Made by a program: the position numbers and the translations under genes. Shown here in pieces: positions 2,221 to 8,733 of a stretch of 9,219 bases of DNA (positions are counted from its first letter, which is position 1; each line of letters begins with the position of its first letter). The stretch is from a bacterium (GTDB lineage: Bacteria > CSSED10-310 > JAJRTK01): assembly GCA_024278345.1 (NCBI GenBank), contig JAJRTK010000484.1, positions 1-9,219 on the forward strand, in the 5' to 3' direction. The notes under the pieces were generated by a model. It had not been told where the DNA came from, did no database searches, and saw only the letters and a program-made list of their open reading frames with translations.

Positions 2221-3486
2221 CTACTCTTCTTTTCGCGGTTTGAGGATCATCGCCCGATCATCGTGATCGATGGTGACGCGGAACCTCCGCAGAAAGCTGA
2301 GTCCCAGCAAACCATCCACGGAATCCGTCGATTCCACGTCGTAAATGGCTGCTCGGACGTCGTAAGCGACGGCTTTGCCGAATCGGACGACTTCCAGGAC
2401 CACCACGGGGGCCTCCACGACGCCCGATGCCGTTTGGAGCGTAATCATGCTCAGCTCCGGGGAGTCGAGATCGAAGCCGATTTCGTCCGCCAGTTCTCGG
2501 GAAATGATGGTGAGAGTCGAACCGGTATCCAGAAGGAACCTGACATCGTTAGCCCTCTCCACTTCGCCGTCCACCAGGATTGCTGAACCAGACTGCAAGA
2601 TGGGGACGCGAAACTCGTTCTCCCCCCTTTGATCCGCGTCGTCTCCACTGGGAGCAAGCTCTTCCAGCCGTCGGGCCGCTTCCTCCGCTTCGGGAGAATC
2701 GGGGAAGAGTCGGAGGAATTCCTCGTAGGCGGCAATGGCATGCTCCAGCCGCTCTAGCTCGTCCAAAATCCGTGCAGCTCCGATGAAAGCGGCTCGTCGC
2801 CGGGGGAAATCACGCTGGAGATCCCGGTAGATCTTCAGCGCTTGTCCGGGAAAACCGCCTTCACGGAGAACGGATGCAAGTTGCTCCCGGGTGTACGGAT
2901 CGTTCGGCCTCATGCGCTGGGCCACCGAAAGTTCCGACCGAGCGCACTGGAAGTCCCCCTGATCCCCGCACAAGAGACCTAGTTCCAAATGGGCTTCCAC
3001 AGAGGCCGGGTCAAGGGCGATGGCCTTTCTATAGGCGTCGGCGGCCTCCAGAAGTTTTCCCTTCGCCGCCAGATCTCGCGCTTGAACAAGAAGTTTTCCA
3101 ACGTCTTGAACAGGTTTCTTCGGTGGATTGTCTTGTGCCCTGCCCAGAGGCTTTTCTTGTGTGGAGGAGCCCTTGAGAGTTGCCGCGTGCAGAGAGCCAG
3201 GCGCCGGCCGTCCGTCCTCCAGCTTCGTTTGCGAAACCCCGACGAAGGAGACCCCTTGACTCTTCGGGGCCCTGTCTGCCCCTGGGTGCGACCTGCTCCC
3301 CAATTGCCTGAGCGCCGCCACTGAAAAAAAAGCGGCGACGGAGAAAAGTCCACCCCAAAACAGCCAGCGCCAACGATTGGAACGGCGGCGCCATCCACAG
3401 TCGCAGCGGGGTGACTTCAGGCGCGAGGCCGGAATGATTCGATTGCACACTGGGCAAGTCAAACCGATTGTCGGCAGTGGCTCCAC
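2221..3486 (-). CDS. Membrane-anchored zinc-ribbon / TPR / retropepsin-like aspartyl protease
   Basis: A 421-residue, four-part protein. Residues 11-30 hold two cysteine pairs, C11-x2-C14 and C28-x-C30, like a short zinc ribbon. A basic stretch (WRRRSNRWRW) precedes one hydrophobic helix (about 39-58), so the N-terminus should be cytoplasmic and the rest periplasmic. A polar Pro/Ser-rich linker leads to TPR-like helices (about 130-278, including YRKAIALDPASVEAHLELG). Residues 292-418 are a single-domain, retropepsin-like aspartyl protease of clan AA: the catalytic LLDTGST (D320-T-G322) and the downstream hydrophobic GLLGLSFL (392-399) are both present. Such domains dimerise to form one active site, so the enzyme probably acts as a homodimer; its substrate is unknown. 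GTG 3486 is chosen because GGAGA stands 7 nt upstream and a promoter candidate lies just before it. The frame continues to a TTG at 3543 without a ribosome site. It is monocistronic in the window and divergent from the BMC operon. Confidence 0.8.
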   Translation of the reverse strand: MEPLPTIGLTCPVCNRIIPASRLKSPRCDCGWRRRSNRWRWLFWGGLFSVAAFFSVAALRQLGSRSHPGADRAPKSQGVSFVGVSQTKLEDGRPAPGSLHAATLKGSSTQEKPLGRAQDNPPKKPVQDVGKLLVQARDLAAKGKLLEAADAYRKAIALDPASVEAHLELGLLCGDQGDFQCARSELSVAQRMRPNDPYTREQLASVLREGGFPGQALKIYRDLQRDFPRRRAAFIGAARILDELERLEHAIAAYEEFLRLFPDSPEAEEAARRLEELAPSGDDADQRGENEFRVPILQSGSAILVDGEVERANDVRFLLDTGSTLTIISRELADEIGFDLDSPELSMITLQTASGVVEAPVVVLEVVRFGKAVAYDVRAAIYDVESTDSVDGLLGLSFLRRFRVTIDHDDRAMILKPRKEE

Positions 3487-3553
3487 AGTCGAATCTCCGC
3501 GAGTCCGTTCCAGGTGTTGAGTGTTTCCCCGCACCGATTTCAAAAGCGTAACC

Positions 3554-3791: not shown

Positions 3792-4442
3792 ATGTGGAGT
3801 TTCCTTGCGGAAGCCGTCGTGCTGTACATTCTTATGACCATCGCCAAGGATCGGCAAGAAACGATGAGTGGCCGCCGCTCTGCCGTGGGGGAGACCGCCG
3901 ATTCAGAGGAACGGCCCACCGAACCGGCAGAGGACCGATCCTCATCCGCCCCGAAGGCCCGGCCCTCGCGGGAGGCCCCGGGAGAGCGTCCCGGCGCCGC
4001 GGACAAATCTCGCCAACCCAGTTGGACCTGGCGAGGCCGGACCCAGGCTGAAAAAACTTTCCGATCAACTCTCTTCAACCGAGCCCCCCGAGGCCAGGCC
4101 GAGCCCGAGAAAGGGCTTTGGGACAAGGTGGGGCGGTGGTATGGAAAAAGTAAGGAACGAGTCGTCAAGACGGGGCGCCAAGTGCGTTCCCGGGTCAATG
4201 GAATTGGCGTGGATCTTCCCAGCCGGGCCAGTGATCCGGAAAAGCCCGAAGAGACCGCAGATTCAAAACCCACTTCGCCGAAGCCCCCCCCTTTTGAGCC
4301 GCCCCAGATGATTCGAGACCCACAATGCGGAGAGATCGTCCCCTGGGCTCTGGCGGTCTCCCTCAAGGTCGAGGGGCAGGTGCTGTACTTTTGCAGCGAG
4401 GATTGCCGGGATTCCCACGAAGAGAGGTTGCGCGATGAATGA
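3792..4442 (+). CDS. Single-pass membrane protein with C-terminal TRASH/YHS-like cysteine motif
   Basis: A 216-residue protein opening with a short hydrophobic helix (residues 3-17, SFLAEAVVLYILMTI) followed by a charged stretch, so it is probably anchored with its bulk on one side of the membrane. Residues ~20-170 are Pro/Ser/Arg/Glu-rich and look disordered, apart from a basic, possibly amphipathic part around 105-135. The C-terminus (173-208) carries a compact cysteine motif: DPQCG (C179), then YFCSEDC (C201, C205). The spacing C-x21-C-x3-C fits the TRASH metal-binding pattern and resembles YHS-type domains. In related proteins these bind or traffic metal ions; here a metal role is inference. 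ATG 3792 is chosen because GGAGG stands 5 nt upstream; the frame is open farther back without a better site. Its stop overlaps the aldolase start by 8 nt, so it is the first gene of the BMC-type operon and probably co-translated with the aldolase. The exact family is not recognised. Confidence 0.7.
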   Translation: MWSFLAEAVVLYILMTIAKDRQETMSGRRSAVGETADSEERPTEPAEDRSSSAPKARPSREAPGERPGAADKSRQPSWTWRGRTQAEKTFRSTLFNRAPRGQAEPEKGLWDKVGRWYGKSKERVVKTGRQVRSRVNGIGVDLPSRASDPEKPEETADSKPTSPKPPPFEPPQMIRDPQCGEIVPWALAVSLKVEGQVLYFCSEDCRDSHEERLRDE

Positions 4443-5472
4443 GCTTTCCATGCGCCGGGAGATGGCCCGTGCCGGTCGCCTTCTCTACGAGCGCGATCTC
4501 TTGACGGCGTTGGATGGCAACATCAGTCTTTTGTTGGGGCCGGGGCGCCTGTTAACCACGCCGTCGGGAGCCTGCAAGGGAAGACTCGACCCCGATGACA
4601 TGGTGGTGGTCGATGAACGGGGCGAGCCCTTTCCCGGGCAGAGGCGCCCCTCCTCGGAGCTCAAGATGCACCTGGCGATCTATGCGGTGCGCCCCGACGT
4701 CCGGGTTGTCGTCCATGCCCATCCGCCCCATGCCACAGCCTTCGCCGTGGCTGGCGTCCCCCTGGACAGCGTCGCCTTGGCCGAGGTCGTCTACAACGTG
4801 GGCGTTGTGCCGCTCACGGAGTATGCCCTCCCCTCCACTGACCGGCTGGCTCGCATCATCGGCCAGTACATCCCCTACTACCAGGCACTGCTTCTTCGGA
4901 ACCACGGCGTCGTCACCGTGGGCAAGGATCTGTGGGACGCGTACCACAGGATGGAGAGCGTGGAGCATTTCGCCCGGATTCTTCTCTACGCCAAGCAGCT
5001 TGGAGGCGTGGAGGAACTCGATTCCGAACAGATCGGGCAGCTTTGCCAGCTTCGGCGGAATGCCGGTGAGCTGGGGCCAAATCCACTTTGTGATGAGATT
5101 CCCCCAGATGTGGCCGCTTCCTCCCCCGCTGCCGTTGGCCCATCCGCTGCGGCCTGCCGAGAAGAGGAGAACCATGCCGGAGACCATCACTGCTCTGGCT
5201 GCTCCGGGGCGGGCGGGGCAGGCCCCCTCCGTGACACCGAGATCGATCTTCACTGGTCTCCCGCCGATGCCTGGCCGGAGTCTCAGAGCCTAGCTGCTCC
5301 CACCGGCAGTCAAGAATGCTCTCCTGCCGCCGCCGCCGGTGAATGGACTTCATCCAATGGGGGTTCCGACCTCAAGGCGGAAGCGGATGAGATGGTGGCA
5401 TCGGTGGTGCGGCAGGTACTTGAACAAATGAGCGCAAAAATGCGCAGGGGAGGGCTTCATGTTACTGGGTAG
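4435..5472 (+). CDS. Class II aldolase (fuculose/rhamnulose-phosphate aldolase-like) with BMC-targeting-like C-terminal tail
   Basis: Residues 1-~215 form a class II aldolase/adducin domain. The expected zinc-site residues are present: E75 in the PSSELKMH segment, the HAHPP pair H94 and H96, and H157 in the RNHG motif; the glycine-rich DGNIS and TPSGACKG loops are also there. Family members cleave L-fuculose-1-phosphate or L-rhamnulose-1-phosphate to dihydroxyacetone phosphate and lactaldehyde; the exact substrate cannot be read from sequence. The ordinary enzyme ends near 215 residues, but here a further ~127 follow: a Pro/Ala/Ser-rich linker, a Cys/His patch (C241, H247, H251, H252, C253, C256), and a final amphipathic helix (EADEMVASVVRQVLEQM, 316-332) like BMC encapsulation peptides. 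It starts inside the stop of the TRASH gene (AGAGG 7 nt upstream of ATG 4435) and overlaps the first BMC-P gene by 14 nt. Together with the BMC-P genes this points to a microcompartment cargo enzyme. A ribulose-5-phosphate epimerase/aldolase relative is the main alternative. Confidence 0.85.
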   Translation: MNELSMRREMARAGRLLYERDLLTALDGNISLLLGPGRLLTTPSGACKGRLDPDDMVVVDERGEPFPGQRRPSSELKMHLAIYAVRPDVRVVVHAHPPHATAFAVAGVPLDSVALAEVVYNVGVVPLTEYALPSTDRLARIIGQYIPYYQALLLRNHGVVTVGKDLWDAYHRMESVEHFARILLYAKQLGGVEELDSEQIGQLCQLRRNAGELGPNPLCDEIPPDVAASSPAAVGPSAAACREEENHAGDHHCSGCSGAGGAGPLRDTEIDLHWSPADAWPESQSLAAPTGSQECSPAAAAGEWTSSNGGSDLKAEADEMVASVVRQVLEQMSAKMRRGGLHVTG

Positions 5473-5731
5473 AGTGATCGGCACGGTGGTGGCCACGCGA
5501 AAGGCCGACAGCCTTGTAGGGGGAAAACTCTTGATCGTCCGCTATTTAGAGTTGGACGGGAAACCCAAGGGGTCGTTCGATGTCTGCCTCGACACCGTGG
5601 GCGCCGGGGCCGGAGAAACAGTCCTCGTGGTCAAGGGTAGCTCCGCACGGATGGTGGAAGCGTTCAAGAACTGTCCCACCGATGCTTCCATTATTGCCAT
5701 CGTCGATCACGTGGAAGTGGACAGTCCATGA
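5459..5731 (+). CDS. BMC-P shell vertex protein 1 (EutN/CcmL family)
   Basis: A 90-residue protein of normal length for the EutN/CcmL (Pfam BMC vertex) family, whose pentamers cap the corners of bacterial microcompartment shells. Characteristic features are the opening beta strand GRVIGTVVATRK (4-15), the KLLIVRYLELDG strand (23-34), the DTVGAGAGETVLVV signature (45-58), and the closing IIAIVDHVEV (78-87). The start ATG 5459 is preceded by a GGGGAGGG ribosome site. The gene overlaps the aldolase end by 14 nt, and its own stop overlaps the next BMC-P start in an ATGA (5728-5731), so expression is coupled through the block. It is the shortest of the three paralogues and has no extension. The family is certain; which microcompartment it belongs to is inferred from the aldolase next door. 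Confidence 0.95.
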   Translation: MLLGRVIGTVVATRKADSLVGGKLLIVRYLELDGKPKGSFDVCLDTVGAGAGETVLVVKGSSARMVEAFKNCPTDASIIAIVDHVEVDSP

Positions 5732-6207
5732 AATTCGCCAGGGTCATCGGGACGGTGGTTGCCACCGTAAAAGCTCCGAGTTTCGTGGGGAAAAAGCTCC
5801 TGATCCTTCAACCTGTGGACGGTCGGGGGCAGAACCTGGGCTCGCCTATTGTCGGGATGGATTCCGTTGGGGCCGGTGCCGGCGAGCTCGTTCTCTACGT
5901 GGGCGGCAAGGAGGCCTCCTTTCCCTTCCTGCCCCAGGAAGTCCCCGTGGATGCTGGAATCGTCGGCATCATCGATACCATCGACCGCTACGATTTTCCC
6001 GCTGCGCCCCTTCGGGCCCCAGAAAACGAATCTCGACTCTCCAGGGCGCTCTCCGGCGCGCCGGAACAAAAAATTCCAACCTCGCTTTCGCCGTCCACAC
6101 CGCCGAAGGGATCGCTCTCCAAGAGCATGGCCGCGGCCCTCCGGGAAAAACGCCGCCGCAGGCGGAAGAGGAGCAAGCAGAGGAGGCGCAAAGGTGCAAA
6201 TCGCTAG
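5728..6207 (+). CDS. BMC-P shell vertex protein 2 with long polybasic C-terminal extension
   Basis: Residues 1-~90 are a complete EutN/CcmL domain: FARVIGTVVATVKAP (3-17), KKLLILQPVD (22-31), MDSVGAGAGELVLYV (44-58) and VGIIDTIDRY (79-88). It differs from its neighbours by a ~70-residue tail. The first part (90-130) is Pro/Ser-rich and probably disordered. It is followed by a short potential helix (SKSMAAALREK, 131-141) and a strongly basic end (RRRRRKRSKQRRRKG, 142-156). Ordinary BMC-P proteins are 80-100 residues. The tail could reach into or out of the pentamer to bind cargo, another shell protein, membrane or nucleic acid; none of this is shown by sequence. The coding of the basic end also contains the AGGAGG ribosome site of the next gene, so some arginine codons may be constrained by that. 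The start overlaps the previous stop (ATGA), and the TAG stop lies 14 nt inside the third BMC-P gene. Confidence 0.93.
   Translation: MKFARVIGTVVATVKAPSFVGKKLLILQPVDGRGQNLGSPIVGMDSVGAGAGELVLYVGGKEASFPFLPQEVPVDAGIVGIIDTIDRYDFPAAPLRAPENESRLSRALSGAPEQKIPTSLSPSTPPKGSLSKSMAAALREKRRRRRKRSKQRRRKGANR
6181..6186 (+). promoter_or_regulatory. Ribosome binding site for the third BMC-P gene
   Basis: AGGAGG, 7 nt before GTG 6194, inside the Arg-codon-rich end of the second BMC-P gene. It decides the start of the third BMC-P, for which longer upstream starts are in frame. Confidence 0.75.
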
Positions 6208-6499
6208 GGTTACCGGAACCATCGTGGCTACTCGGAAACAGGAGCCCATGGAAGCGAAGAAATTGCTCCTCGTTCAGCCTCTCGACTTGGAGCAAGAACC
6301 CACGGGCCCCGAGTTCATGGCCATGGATTCCGTCGGCGCCGGCGTCGGAGAGCTGGTCCTTGTCTGCAACGAAGGAGGATCGGCCAATACCGTCTTCGAA
6401 ACCACCCGCGCCCCCTTCGACTCCGTCATCGTAGGCATCATCGACGCCATTGATCTCCACGGCGGTGGCTCGGCCATCCCGAAAGAGTTCGCAAGTTAG
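6194..6499 (+). CDS. BMC-P shell vertex protein 3 (EutN/CcmL family), GTG start
   Basis: A 101-residue EutN/CcmL pentamer protein. Family signatures are ARVTGTIVATRKQ (4-16), KKLLLVQPLDLE (22-33), MDSVGAGVGELVLVC (44-58) and VIVGIIDAIDLHGGG (77-91), followed by a ~10-residue tail. The frame is open far upstream within the second BMC-P gene, which would suggest a much longer protein. The real start is GTG 6194, because AGGAGG stands 7 nt before it and the BMC-P fold begins there. It shares 14 nt with the end of the second BMC-P gene, the same overlap geometry as between the aldolase and the first BMC-P. It is the last gene of the operon; 194 nt separate it from the convergent oxidoreductase. 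The three vertex paralogues differ from one another well beyond recent duplication, suggesting distinct vertex roles. Confidence 0.93.
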   Translation: MQIARVTGTIVATRKQEPMEAKKLLLVQPLDLEQEPTGPEFMAMDSVGAGVGELVLVCNEGGSANTVFETTRAPFDSVIVGIIDAIDLHGGGSAIPKEFAS

Positions 6500-6693: not shown

Positions 6694-8733
6694 TCAAGCC
6701 AAACTCTGCTCCACCAGCTCAAGGATATCGTACGCCTTCACCTTCTCTTCCCGATCCGTGGTCTTGATGCCGTCTTCCAGCATGGTCATGCAGAAGGGGC
6801 AGGCCGAGACGATGAGTTCGGCGTTGGTCTCCACGAGTTGGTCCACGCGCTTCTTGTTGATGTGGGAACCCCGATCCTCCTCCATCCAAATTCGGCCGCC
6901 TCCGGCGCCGCAGCAAAGGCCCTTTTCGCGGGTCAGGGAAGCCTCCCGGCAGGTGCCTCCAAGCGCAGCCATGATCTGCCTCGGACTGTCGTAGATGTCG
7001 TTGTACCGCCCCAGATAGCAGGAGTCGTGGAACACCATGCTCTTGCCCAGGGAAGCGTCCGGGGAAATCTTGCCTTCCCGGATGAGCTCCGCCACGAAAT
7101 CGGCGCTGTGAACGACCTCGAAGGAGGATCCGAAATCGGGATACTCGTTCTTGAGCGTGTTGAAGCAGTGGGGGCAGTTGGTCACGATCTTCTTGAACTT
7201 GTACTGCTGGAAGATCTCGATATTCTGCTGCGCCATGATCTCGAACAGATACTCGTTTCCGATGCGCCGGGCGGCATCGCCAGTACAGCTCTCTTCTTCT
7301 CCGAGGATCGCGAAATTGACGCCGGCCTTTTGGAAGATCCGGACCAGTGCGCGAGAGACCTTCTTGTTCCGCTCGTCGAAAGCCCCGGCGCAGCCCACCC
7401 AGAACAGAACATCGGTCTCCTCCACGTCAGACATGATGGGGACTTCTAGGTCCCGGCACCAGTCCTCCCGCTCGTGAGCCCCCATGGAATAGGGATTCAT
7501 CTGGGTTTCCAGGCTGTTGAAGACCTCCACCACTTCGCTGGGGAACTCTGCTTCCTCCAGCACTAGGAAGCGCCGCATCTGGACGATCTTGTCCACGAAC
7601 TCGATGCTCACCGGGCAAGCCTCCTCACAGGCTCGGCAGGTGGTGCAATCCCAGAGAACATCGGTGGTGATGATGTCGTGGATGAGACTGGGCCTCCCGT
7701 TGTCTCCGCCATTTTTCTTCTCTTTGCCGTTGGCCCCTCCCACGCCGGCCATCATCGTATCCCGGAGGCTGTAAAACTGGTTCCGGAGGTTCATGGAAAG
7801 ATGCTTCGGAGAAAGCGGCTTATCTGTATTGTAGGCGGGGCACATGGAGGAGCAGCGTCCGCATTCCGTGCAGGTGTATGCGTCCAAAATGTCCTTCCAG
7901 TCGAAATGCTCCACCCTGGAAAACCCGTAGTTTTCGGCCTCTTCGATGTTTTCAATCCTGGGCAGCTTCCCCTTGGGACCAAGGTTTACGAAAAAAGTGT
8001 TGGGGATGGCAGTGATGACGTGGAAGTGCTTTCCATACGGAAGCAGGTTCAAAAAGAGCAGGATCACACCCAGGTGAAGCCACCAGTTGAAGGCGTGGAT
8101 CATCTGGAGCGATTCCAGGGAAAGCCCGCTGAGCGCCATTCCCACAAAGTTGCTGACGGGAAGCCAGGCCGACCAGGATTGTGCCGCCGTCCATGGGGTC
8201 ATGGAAGCCGCCGCGATTTCCGTTCCGTCGATGTAAAGATCCGTCACCATCAGCGTCAAAATCAAAAGCAAAATGAAATAGGCCTCCAGAGCGTTGGAAA
8301 TCCGCTTCGGAGCGGCCGCAAACCGCCAGAAGATCCAGAACAGCGCGCCAATGCTCACCAGGATGGCGAAGATCTCTTTTGATAGCAGGTAGACGCCCCA
8401 GGTCACCTCGAACCAGCCCAGCAGCGGAAAACGGAAGCCGTGGTACAGGCCCTCTCCAAAAAGGGTCACCGTCCGAATGGAAAAGACGCAAAACCCCCAA
8501 AAAACAATGGCGTGCATGAACCCAGCCAATGGCTCCTTGAACATCTTCTTCTGGCCCAGGGCCACCTGAATCACGTACATAATACGCTTGGGAATCTGGT
8601 CGAATCGGCCCAGAGGTTGCCCCGCCATCAGCAAGCGGGTTCGATGGTAGGCCGAGTAAGCGAAAACGCCAAGGCCCACCGTCATCATGGCGATAAGGCT
8701 GAGCCATCCGGCGTCGGTCTGGGTCGGAGTCAT
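6694..8733 (-). CDS. Membrane FeS oxidoreductase, EtfAB:quinone oxidoreductase-like (NarI-like plus HdrD/CCG domains)
   Basis: A 679-residue fusion. The N-terminal ~245 residues carry about five to six hydrophobic segments resembling the gamma subunit of respiratory nitrate reductase, with candidate haem-ligand histidines H74, H213, H220 and H236/H238. Two 4Fe-4S ferredoxin motifs follow: C288-x2-C291-x2-C294-x3-C298-P and C363-x2-C366-x2-C369-x3-C373-P. Two cysteine-rich CCG-type domains like those of heterodisulfide reductase end the protein: C448, C483-T-G, C520-x2-C523, and C572, C607-C608-G, C645-x2-C648. This order and length match the FadF-type / EtfAB:(mena)quinone oxidoreductase group, which passes electrons from electron-transfer flavoprotein (for example from acyl-CoA oxidation) to membrane quinone. 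Other HdrD/DsrK-like oxidoreductases are the alternative, and no etf genes lie in the window to confirm. The ATG has GGAGG 7 nt upstream. The gene stands alone on its strand, convergent with the BMC operon; two palindromes lie upstream. Confidence 0.85.
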   Translation of the reverse strand: MTPTQTDAGWLSLIAMMTVGLGVFAYSAYHRTRLLMAGQPLGRFDQIPKRIMYVIQVALGQKKMFKEPLAGFMHAIVFWGFCVFSIRTVTLFGEGLYHGFRFPLLGWFEVTWGVYLLSKEIFAILVSIGALFWIFWRFAAAPKRISNALEAYFILLLILTLMVTDLYIDGTEIAAASMTPWTAAQSWSAWLPVSNFVGMALSGLSLESLQMIHAFNWWLHLGVILLFLNLLPYGKHFHVITAIPNTFFVNLGPKGKLPRIENIEEAENYGFSRVEHFDWKDILDAYTCTECGRCSSMCPAYNTDKPLSPKHLSMNLRNQFYSLRDTMMAGVGGANGKEKKNGGDNGRPSLIHDIITTDVLWDCTTCRACEEACPVSIEFVDKIVQMRRFLVLEEAEFPSEVVEVFNSLETQMNPYSMGAHEREDWCRDLEVPIMSDVEETDVLFWVGCAGAFDERNKKVSRALVRIFQKAGVNFAILGEEESCTGDAARRIGNEYLFEIMAQQNIEIFQQYKFKKIVTNCPHCFNTLKNEYPDFGSSFEVVHSADFVAELIREGKISPDASLGKSMVFHDSCYLGRYNDIYDSPRQIMAALGGTCREASLTREKGLCCGAGGGRIWMEEDRGSHINKKRVDQLVETNAELIVSACPFCMTMLEDGIKTTDREEKVKAYDILELVEQSLA

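Follow-up and report, generated by a model that had tools for sequence, protein, structure and literature searches.

The 9219-bp window analysed here, which is the entire contig C428 of a draft metagenome-assembled genome (MAG G000; 6.06 Mb in 550 contigs, 88% complete), carries a five-gene satellite operon of a bacterial microcompartment (BMC). The operon encodes a membrane protein with a TRASH motif, a class II aldolase with a C-terminal tail and three BMC-P vertex proteins. The block is very probably a complete BMC satellite operon, with the shell and cargo parts of the system split between loci. Together with a BMC-H gene, a DeoC-type aldolase and a tailed aldehyde dehydrogenase (AldDh) encoded elsewhere in the genome, it may form one BMC, with parts at at least three loci, that breaks down nucleoside-derived sugars; we place the probability of this reading at about 0.55. 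The assignment of the substrates, with acetaldehyde set free by both aldolases of a nucleoside-sugar compartment, has roughly even odds.

All five open reading frames (ORFs) are on the + strand and successively overlap by 8, 14, 4 and 14 nt, exactly the coupling described in the original prediction, which was made from the window sequence. Pfam matches, and a helix that AlphaFold predicts in the aldolase tail, bear out the proposed set of three BMC-P proteins and a tailed, cargo-like aldolase. The leading gene was also correctly described as a TRASH-motif membrane protein, as it combines a hydrophobic segment with a motif that can be aligned with Acidobacteria homologues. The operon was said to lack a facet gene, an aldehyde dehydrogenase and a phosphotransacylase, and no BMC-H, BMC-T, AldDh or phosphotransacylase gene is present on the whole window contig. 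Both flanking genes are on the - strand, so the window contains the whole operon and a BMC-H gene does not lie just beyond it. A PF00936 search of the genome returned a single match, a BMC-H at C353:20189-20416, and no BMC-T. Since a BMC-H gene is neither just outside the operon nor absent from the genome, "satellite" is the correct term. The tetranucleotide profile of the window correlates with that of the MAG's other contigs at r of 0.92-0.95, versus 0.37-0.78 for other genomes, which supports the binning of this contig into the MAG. This profile, together with BMC-P identities closer to the same-phylum genome G003 than to the ACI type of BMC, rules out a mis-binned Acidobacteria contig.

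The C353 BMC-H shares 84% identity over 87 residues with the BMC-H of an ACI locus (L158) and 80% with that of G003. Directly downstream of it is a DeoC aldolase gene (TIGR00126, 277 bits versus a cut-off of 117), and the encoded protein bears an N-terminal extension of the encapsulation-peptide type (ERIVDLVTRITLQVLQDL). Seven aldehyde dehydrogenases are encoded in G000. One of them, alone on the 3-kb contig C133 with no shell genes beside it, has a C-terminal tail (DDQIRALVEQVLRNMKL) and is an enzyme with a terminal extension of the kind that the original prediction proposed to look for; its nearest family is the acetylating acetaldehyde dehydrogenase TIGR02518 (605 bits versus a cut-off of 620). 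An MtnP-PfkB gene pair (L113:5432-7390, contig C501) and MtnA are also present, at sites away from the BMC genes. The pair recurs in G003 and in a further same-phylum genome, G001, and its PfkB kinase reaches no specific family above cut-off.

Seven of the 60 relatives compared belong to the same phylum, and BMC-P triplets are found in four of the seven. Shell genes lie at several genomic sites in G000 (BMC-P on C428, BMC-H on C353) and also in G001 and G003, both of which encode the tailed AldDh. Four genomes of the phylum, namely G000, G001, G003 and G007, have the BMC-H-DeoC pair. In G001 and G003 the pair is followed by a pyrimidine-nucleoside phosphorylase gene (L117:7270-9924 and L121:5441-8200). 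At a separate locus of G003, a tightly packed row consists of MerR, MtnP, a PfkB kinase, the orthologous aldolase and three BMC-P genes, in which MtnP is a methylthioadenosine (MTA) phosphorylase (TIGR01694, above cut-off). The conservation of gene order, which the original prediction had proposed to compare, holds in part: the succession of aldolase and three BMC-P genes is kept in G003, and in ACI loci with a BMC-H in between; in G001 the aldolase and the triplet each stand alone. An MtnA gene of G001 lies 1.7 kb from the triplet; because it is on the opposite strand and separated from the triplet by further genes, it was not counted as a link.

The window aldolase should be an active enzyme, because the metal and catalytic-base residues E75, H94, H96 and H157 are invariant in the alignment. 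It is the sole PF00596 protein found in G000, as is the case in G001 and G003 with one each; no second member of the family means that an MtnB (methylthioribulose-1-phosphate dehydratase) of this type was not found in G000. In the AlphaFold model (20-sequence alignment), the core mostly exceeds a pLDDT of 90 and is followed by the disordered linker and the terminal helix listed in Table 1. Related aldolases have comparable terminal helices behind linkers of varying length, and this conserved position, together with the predicted structure, makes the helix a putative encapsulation peptide. The nearest structures are YgbL/OtnC, FucA and DrdA. DrdA (PDB 6btd/6btg) produces dihydroxyacetone phosphate (DHAP) and acetaldehyde (PMC6079011). 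In a tree of 30 rows, the window enzyme groups on a long branch with the aldolases of ACI loci and of G001 and G003, with an SH-aLRT of 83, which is below the mark of 95. Neither the family models nor the tree separates its subtype (Ald2/DrdA-type or other).

In the proposed mechanism, the window satellite would supply three pentameric vertex proteins, the C-terminally targeted aldolase as cargo and a TRASH protein anchored in the membrane. The facets would be built from the sole BMC-H found, co-encoded with the N-terminally tailed DeoC, and the tailed acetylating AldDh would be contributed by a gene that stands alone. Nucleoside-derived sugar phosphates would enter the shell, in which DeoC would convert 2-deoxyribose-5-phosphate to glyceraldehyde-3-phosphate and acetaldehyde. 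The class II aldolase would cleave a ketose-1-phosphate to DHAP and an aldehyde, the most likely reaction being that of 5-deoxyribulose-1-phosphate to give acetaldehyde. This sugar phosphate is made from 5'-deoxyadenosine by MtnP and MtnA in the DHAP shunt (PMC6079011, PMC10986504). The trapped acetaldehyde would then be converted by the tailed dehydrogenase to acetyl-CoA, and the triose phosphates would leave. Both aldolases adjoin shell genes and, in relatives, lie near a nucleoside phosphorylase; their use of a single set of shell proteins would make sense if the acetaldehyde from both deoxy-sugars were trapped in the same compartment.

That a tailed class II aldolase can belong to the DHAP shunt is independently supported by the Spirochaete locus L211:2136-9181 (JAHIWG010000079.1), in which a binding protein, MtnA, MtnK, a transporter, DeoR, a tailed aldolase and PduL are encoded in this order. 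The Spirochaetota locus L194:1-12404 (JAKPBN010000386.1), a close relative of L211, contains a transporter, DeoR, the aldolase and a PduL-like gene, followed by BMC-H, AldDh, BMC-P and PduS-like genes. Judged by gene content, the two loci look like an encapsulated DHAP shunt. We found no paper in the open literature that links the DHAP shunt, methylthioribose or 5-deoxyribose to a microcompartment; one paper notes that a methylthioribose kinase adjoins the pdu cluster of A. woodii, and regards it as unrelated. The wider proposal, that one shell joins 2-deoxyribose catabolism and the 5-deoxyribose DHAP shunt onto one dehydrogenase and that the ACI and FRAG types work likewise, is tentative and falls somewhat short of even odds. 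If it is true, shells would enclose the DHAP shunt in several phyla, including its disposal of 5'-deoxyadenosine, a radical-SAM by-product, and a pathway so far described without a shell would exist inside protein organelles too. No substrate has been assigned to ACI or FRAG, both of them large BMC groups (PMC8217296). The arrangement of the split loci offers them a concrete, testable one, because shell genes adjoin nucleoside-phosphorylase genes in relatives and both tailed aldolases can yield acetaldehyde.

Several observations weigh against the nucleoside-sugar compartment. The aldolase passes no substrate-level NCBIfam cut-off, and OtnC/YgbL, FucA and DrdA alike are among its best models and structures; with no family model at cut-off, the substrate is not readable from sequence. 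The amphipathicity of the tail, measured as hydrophobic moment and taken by itself, is only mildly significant, being matched by 33-99 of 1000 shuffles. PduL was not found in a search of G000, which leaves CoA recycling unexplained. In G000 neither MtnP nor a pyrimidine-nucleoside phosphorylase is known to adjoin a BMC gene; among the same-phylum genomes, the link of MtnP to BMC genes is seen in one (G003) and that of the pyrimidine-nucleoside phosphorylase in two. MtnP and MtnA are also common in organisms that lack BMCs, and methionine salvage by another route may be what MtnA serves. The absences are also soft, since the MAG is 88% complete and in 550 contigs.

The identity of the sugar is where the main alternatives lie. 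It is doubtful, with better chances than the readings below, that the same shell serves another substrate of the class II aldolase, such as ribulose-1-phosphate (releasing glycolaldehyde), methylthioribulose-1-phosphate (methylthioacetaldehyde) or a 3-oxo-tetronate phosphate (decarboxylation). OtnC (NF043034, 6vop/6voq) and ribulose-1-phosphate aldolase (NF053831) are among the best NCBIfam and PDB scores, and methylthioadenosine is also a substrate of MtnP. However, the scores are all far under the curated cut-offs (130 of 250 and 102 of 300), no tetronate genes are seen near the aldolase, and acetaldehyde is the only product common to both aldolases and the acetylating dehydrogenase. The original prediction had pointed to the fucose/rhamnose loci, in which case a PVM- or GRM5-like compartment would split L-fuculose- or L-rhamnulose-1-phosphate into DHAP and lactaldehyde. 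PVM and GRM5 do employ PF00596 aldolases (PMC8217296, PMC4207490), FucA is a close structural relative of the window enzyme, and three loci with related aldolases (L141, L154 and L178) carry FucI, RhaA or FGGY kinases. A joined FucI, RhaA and RhaB query against ten genomes nevertheless gave strong matches in the Firmicutes controls only (FucI, 67% in Moorella, and the kinase), whereas E. coli-type FucI and RhaA were undetected in G000, G001, G003 and G004, with a 23%-identity kinase fragment as the only match in G000; this negative is soft, as it comes from E. coli queries and a draft genome. The surroundings of the phylum's BMC genes show no fucose or rhamnose gene, the AldDh is similar to an acetaldehyde dehydrogenase and DeoC occupies the BMC-H locus. 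The analogy is thus not supported, and a fucose/rhamnose compartment is distinctly unlikely.

Two further alternatives concern the shell itself. The BMC-P proteins could act outside a microcompartment shell, given one BMC-H gene, no BMC-T or PduL found in G000, and the unusual polybasic tail of BMC-P 2. This is very improbable: the BMC-H is present and closely related to that of ACI loci, the aldolase, DeoC and AldDh all have tails of the encapsulation-peptide type, and Haliangium forms shells with a single BMC-H gene, although BMC-T is also there (PMC4207490). Alternatively, the operon could be an ordinary ACI operon from which faulty assembly or binning has removed the BMC-H, as the MAG is a fragmented draft and ACI loci place BMC-H exactly between the aldolase and BMC-P 1. 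The two frames overlap by 14 nt, however, which leaves no room for a BMC-H gene, and in G003, too, no BMC-H lies between the two genes; these two facts rule out an assembly artefact. The agreement of the tetranucleotide profile with the MAG, and the presence of the BMC-H elsewhere in G000, argue against mis-binning as well, so that an artefact has almost no probability.

A contig scan with an aldolase alignment yielded 80 named loci. The order TRASH, aldolase, BMC-H and three BMC-P genes, all on one strand, occurs in at least ten loci of Acidobacteria and in one that is labelled Acidimicrobiia. By aldolase, triplet and host, these Acidobacteria loci are the ACI type of Sutter et al. (2021; PMC8217296), and the TRASH protein is presumably among the "several proteins of unknown function" of that type. 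The window shares with ACI the class II aldolase ending in an encapsulation peptide, the BMC-P triplet, the gene order TRASH-aldolase-BMC-P×3, an Arg-rich tail on the middle BMC-P and a related AldDh whose gene lies apart from the locus; relatives of the tailed AldDh, at about 47-51% identity, are present in most genomes that have ACI-like loci. It differs in that the operon has no BMC-H, with the only BMC-H of G000 on another contig, in a TRASH protein about 2.5 times longer (through a longer linker), and in that none of the eight window proteins scanned is a hydroxyacid dehydrogenase (PF00389/PF02826). G000 also pairs a DeoC cargo with BMC-H, and a relative of this DeoC was undetected in 9 of the 11 genomes with ACI-like loci. 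The host is apparently outside Acidobacteria, in a sparsely sampled phylum, as judged from the count of seven same-phylum genomes among the relatives, where Acidobacteria would be expected to give many more. As the BMC-H and the hydroxyacid dehydrogenase are missing from the locus and the host appears to belong to another phylum, we do not file the window locus as a member of ACI. On present gene content, the window block is best described as the ACI block minus BMC-H, a variant of a known architecture. The case shows that the facet gene of an ACI-like operon can be sited elsewhere in the genome, that ACI loci regularly include the TRASH membrane protein, and that one BMC-H gene may be enough to build a shell. 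Two labels in this set may reflect transfer or mis-binning: L153, an ACI-like locus on the contig labelled Acidimicrobiia, and L181, a "Bacillota" aldolase nested among Bryobacterales ones.

The FRAG type, which has BMC types dispersed among several loci and includes a BMC-P triplet, has already been catalogued (PMC8217296). The window locus fits this description, with shell genes at several loci, a BMC-P triplet and a poorly known phylum; FRAG subtypes themselves are defined by shell-protein trees. FRAG genes are described as mostly remote from known enzymes (PMC8217296), whereas here a tailed aldolase is encoded at each shell locus. The original prediction had considered a split locus led by a membrane protein uncommon. 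The arrangement is not without precedent, because the block, including the TRASH protein, is that of ACI without BMC-H, and the scattering of FRAG and the satellite of HO type I are catalogued as well (PMC8217296). HO type I resembles G000 in its satellite of BMC-P genes and an aldolase and, in some genomes, a DeoC with an encapsulation peptide elsewhere (PMC8217296), but the HO satellite has two BMC-P genes, not three, and HO has BMC-T, compared with the single BMC-H match of G000. The SPU type shares a DeoC with an encapsulation peptide as the acetaldehyde source, an AldDh and a proposed role in nucleic-acid sugar catabolism (PMC8217296, PMC4207490), and a DeoC-type PF01791 aldolase beside a shell gene is found on C353. 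Unlike SPU, G000 shows no RpiB or PduL by its shell genes, adds a class II aldolase and has split loci; the absence of an RpiB-type PF02502 isomerase comes from reading by eye around the two shell loci, with no genome-wide search made. PVM, PVM-like and GRM5 loci (PMC4207490) differ in gene order and in the fucose/rhamnose isomerase, which was not found in G000, where DeoC is present. The DHAP shunt uses a class II aldolase that makes DHAP and acetaldehyde, as the window enzyme may do; MtnP and MtnA are present in G000, and the MtnP link is seen in G003. The published pathway, in contrast, is described without a shell or encapsulation tails (PMC6079011, PMC10986504), and the window aldolase is not clustered with MtnA.

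Table 1. Features of the window (nucleotide positions of the 9219-bp contig).
Feature	Coordinates	Strand	Basis
TRASH/YHS-like protein with a single transmembrane segment, 216 aa	3792..4442	+	ORF, motif, hydrophobic segment, Acidobacteria homologues
Class II aldolase PF00596	4435..5472	+	Pfam Aldolase_II E=2.3e-49
Disordered linker in aldolase tail, about aa 230-310	5122..5364	+	AlphaFold pLDDT < 50
Putative encapsulation peptide EADEMVASVVRQVLEQMSAKM, C-terminal amphipathic helix of aldolase, aa 311-338	5365..5448	+	Block-mean pLDDT 81-89
BMC-P 1, 90 aa	5459..5731	+	EutN_CcmL (PF03319) E=6.5e-30
BMC-P 2, 159 aa, long C-terminal tail	5728..6207	+	EutN_CcmL (PF03319) E=1.8e-26
Polybasic end of BMC-P 2 tail REKRRRRRKRSKQRRRKGANR	6142..6204	+	Sequence composition
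BMC-P 3, 101 aa, GTG start	6194..6499	+	EutN_CcmL (PF03319) E=2.1e-28
TPR/aspartic-protease protein, operon neighbour	2221-3543	-	
Fe-S oxidoreductase, operon neighbour	6694-8733	-	

The TRASH protein starts at an ATG preceded by GGAGG and consists of one N-terminal hydrophobic segment, a long charged and Pro-rich linker and a C-terminal C...FCSxxC motif of the metal-binding type. The motif by itself is weak (zf-FCS, E=0.0017, below cut-off) but can be aligned with its counterparts in Acidobacteria, and some of these homologues match a YHS domain. In ACI loci the homologue is ~80-90 aa long, is encoded directly upstream of the aldolase and, as in the window protein, combines a single hydrophobic segment with an RDPxCG...FCSxxCR motif. 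The protein may serve as a membrane tether or in metal delivery. The Fe-S oxidoreductase downstream of the operon is a 679-aa fusion of membrane, 4Fe-4S and CCG domains that reaches no NCBIfam cut-off, and no relation to the BMC operon is seen.

G000 has exactly three BMC-P genes, all in the window operon. BMC-P 1, 2 and 3 share 62%, 72% (over the domain) and 56% identity, respectively, with their G003 counterparts. The tail of BMC-P 2 has 16 Lys or Arg among its last 30 residues, and a possible role is contact with nucleic acid, polyphosphate or the membrane. An Arg-rich tail, much shorter than that of the window protein, is also present on the middle BMC-P in several ACI loci from Acidobacteria. 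In G004 and G007, which belong to one family, the BMC-P triplet is directly followed by an apparent zinc-type alcohol dehydrogenase gene (L049:8017-10173 and L051:2478-4550), which possibly encodes an NAD-recycling enzyme.

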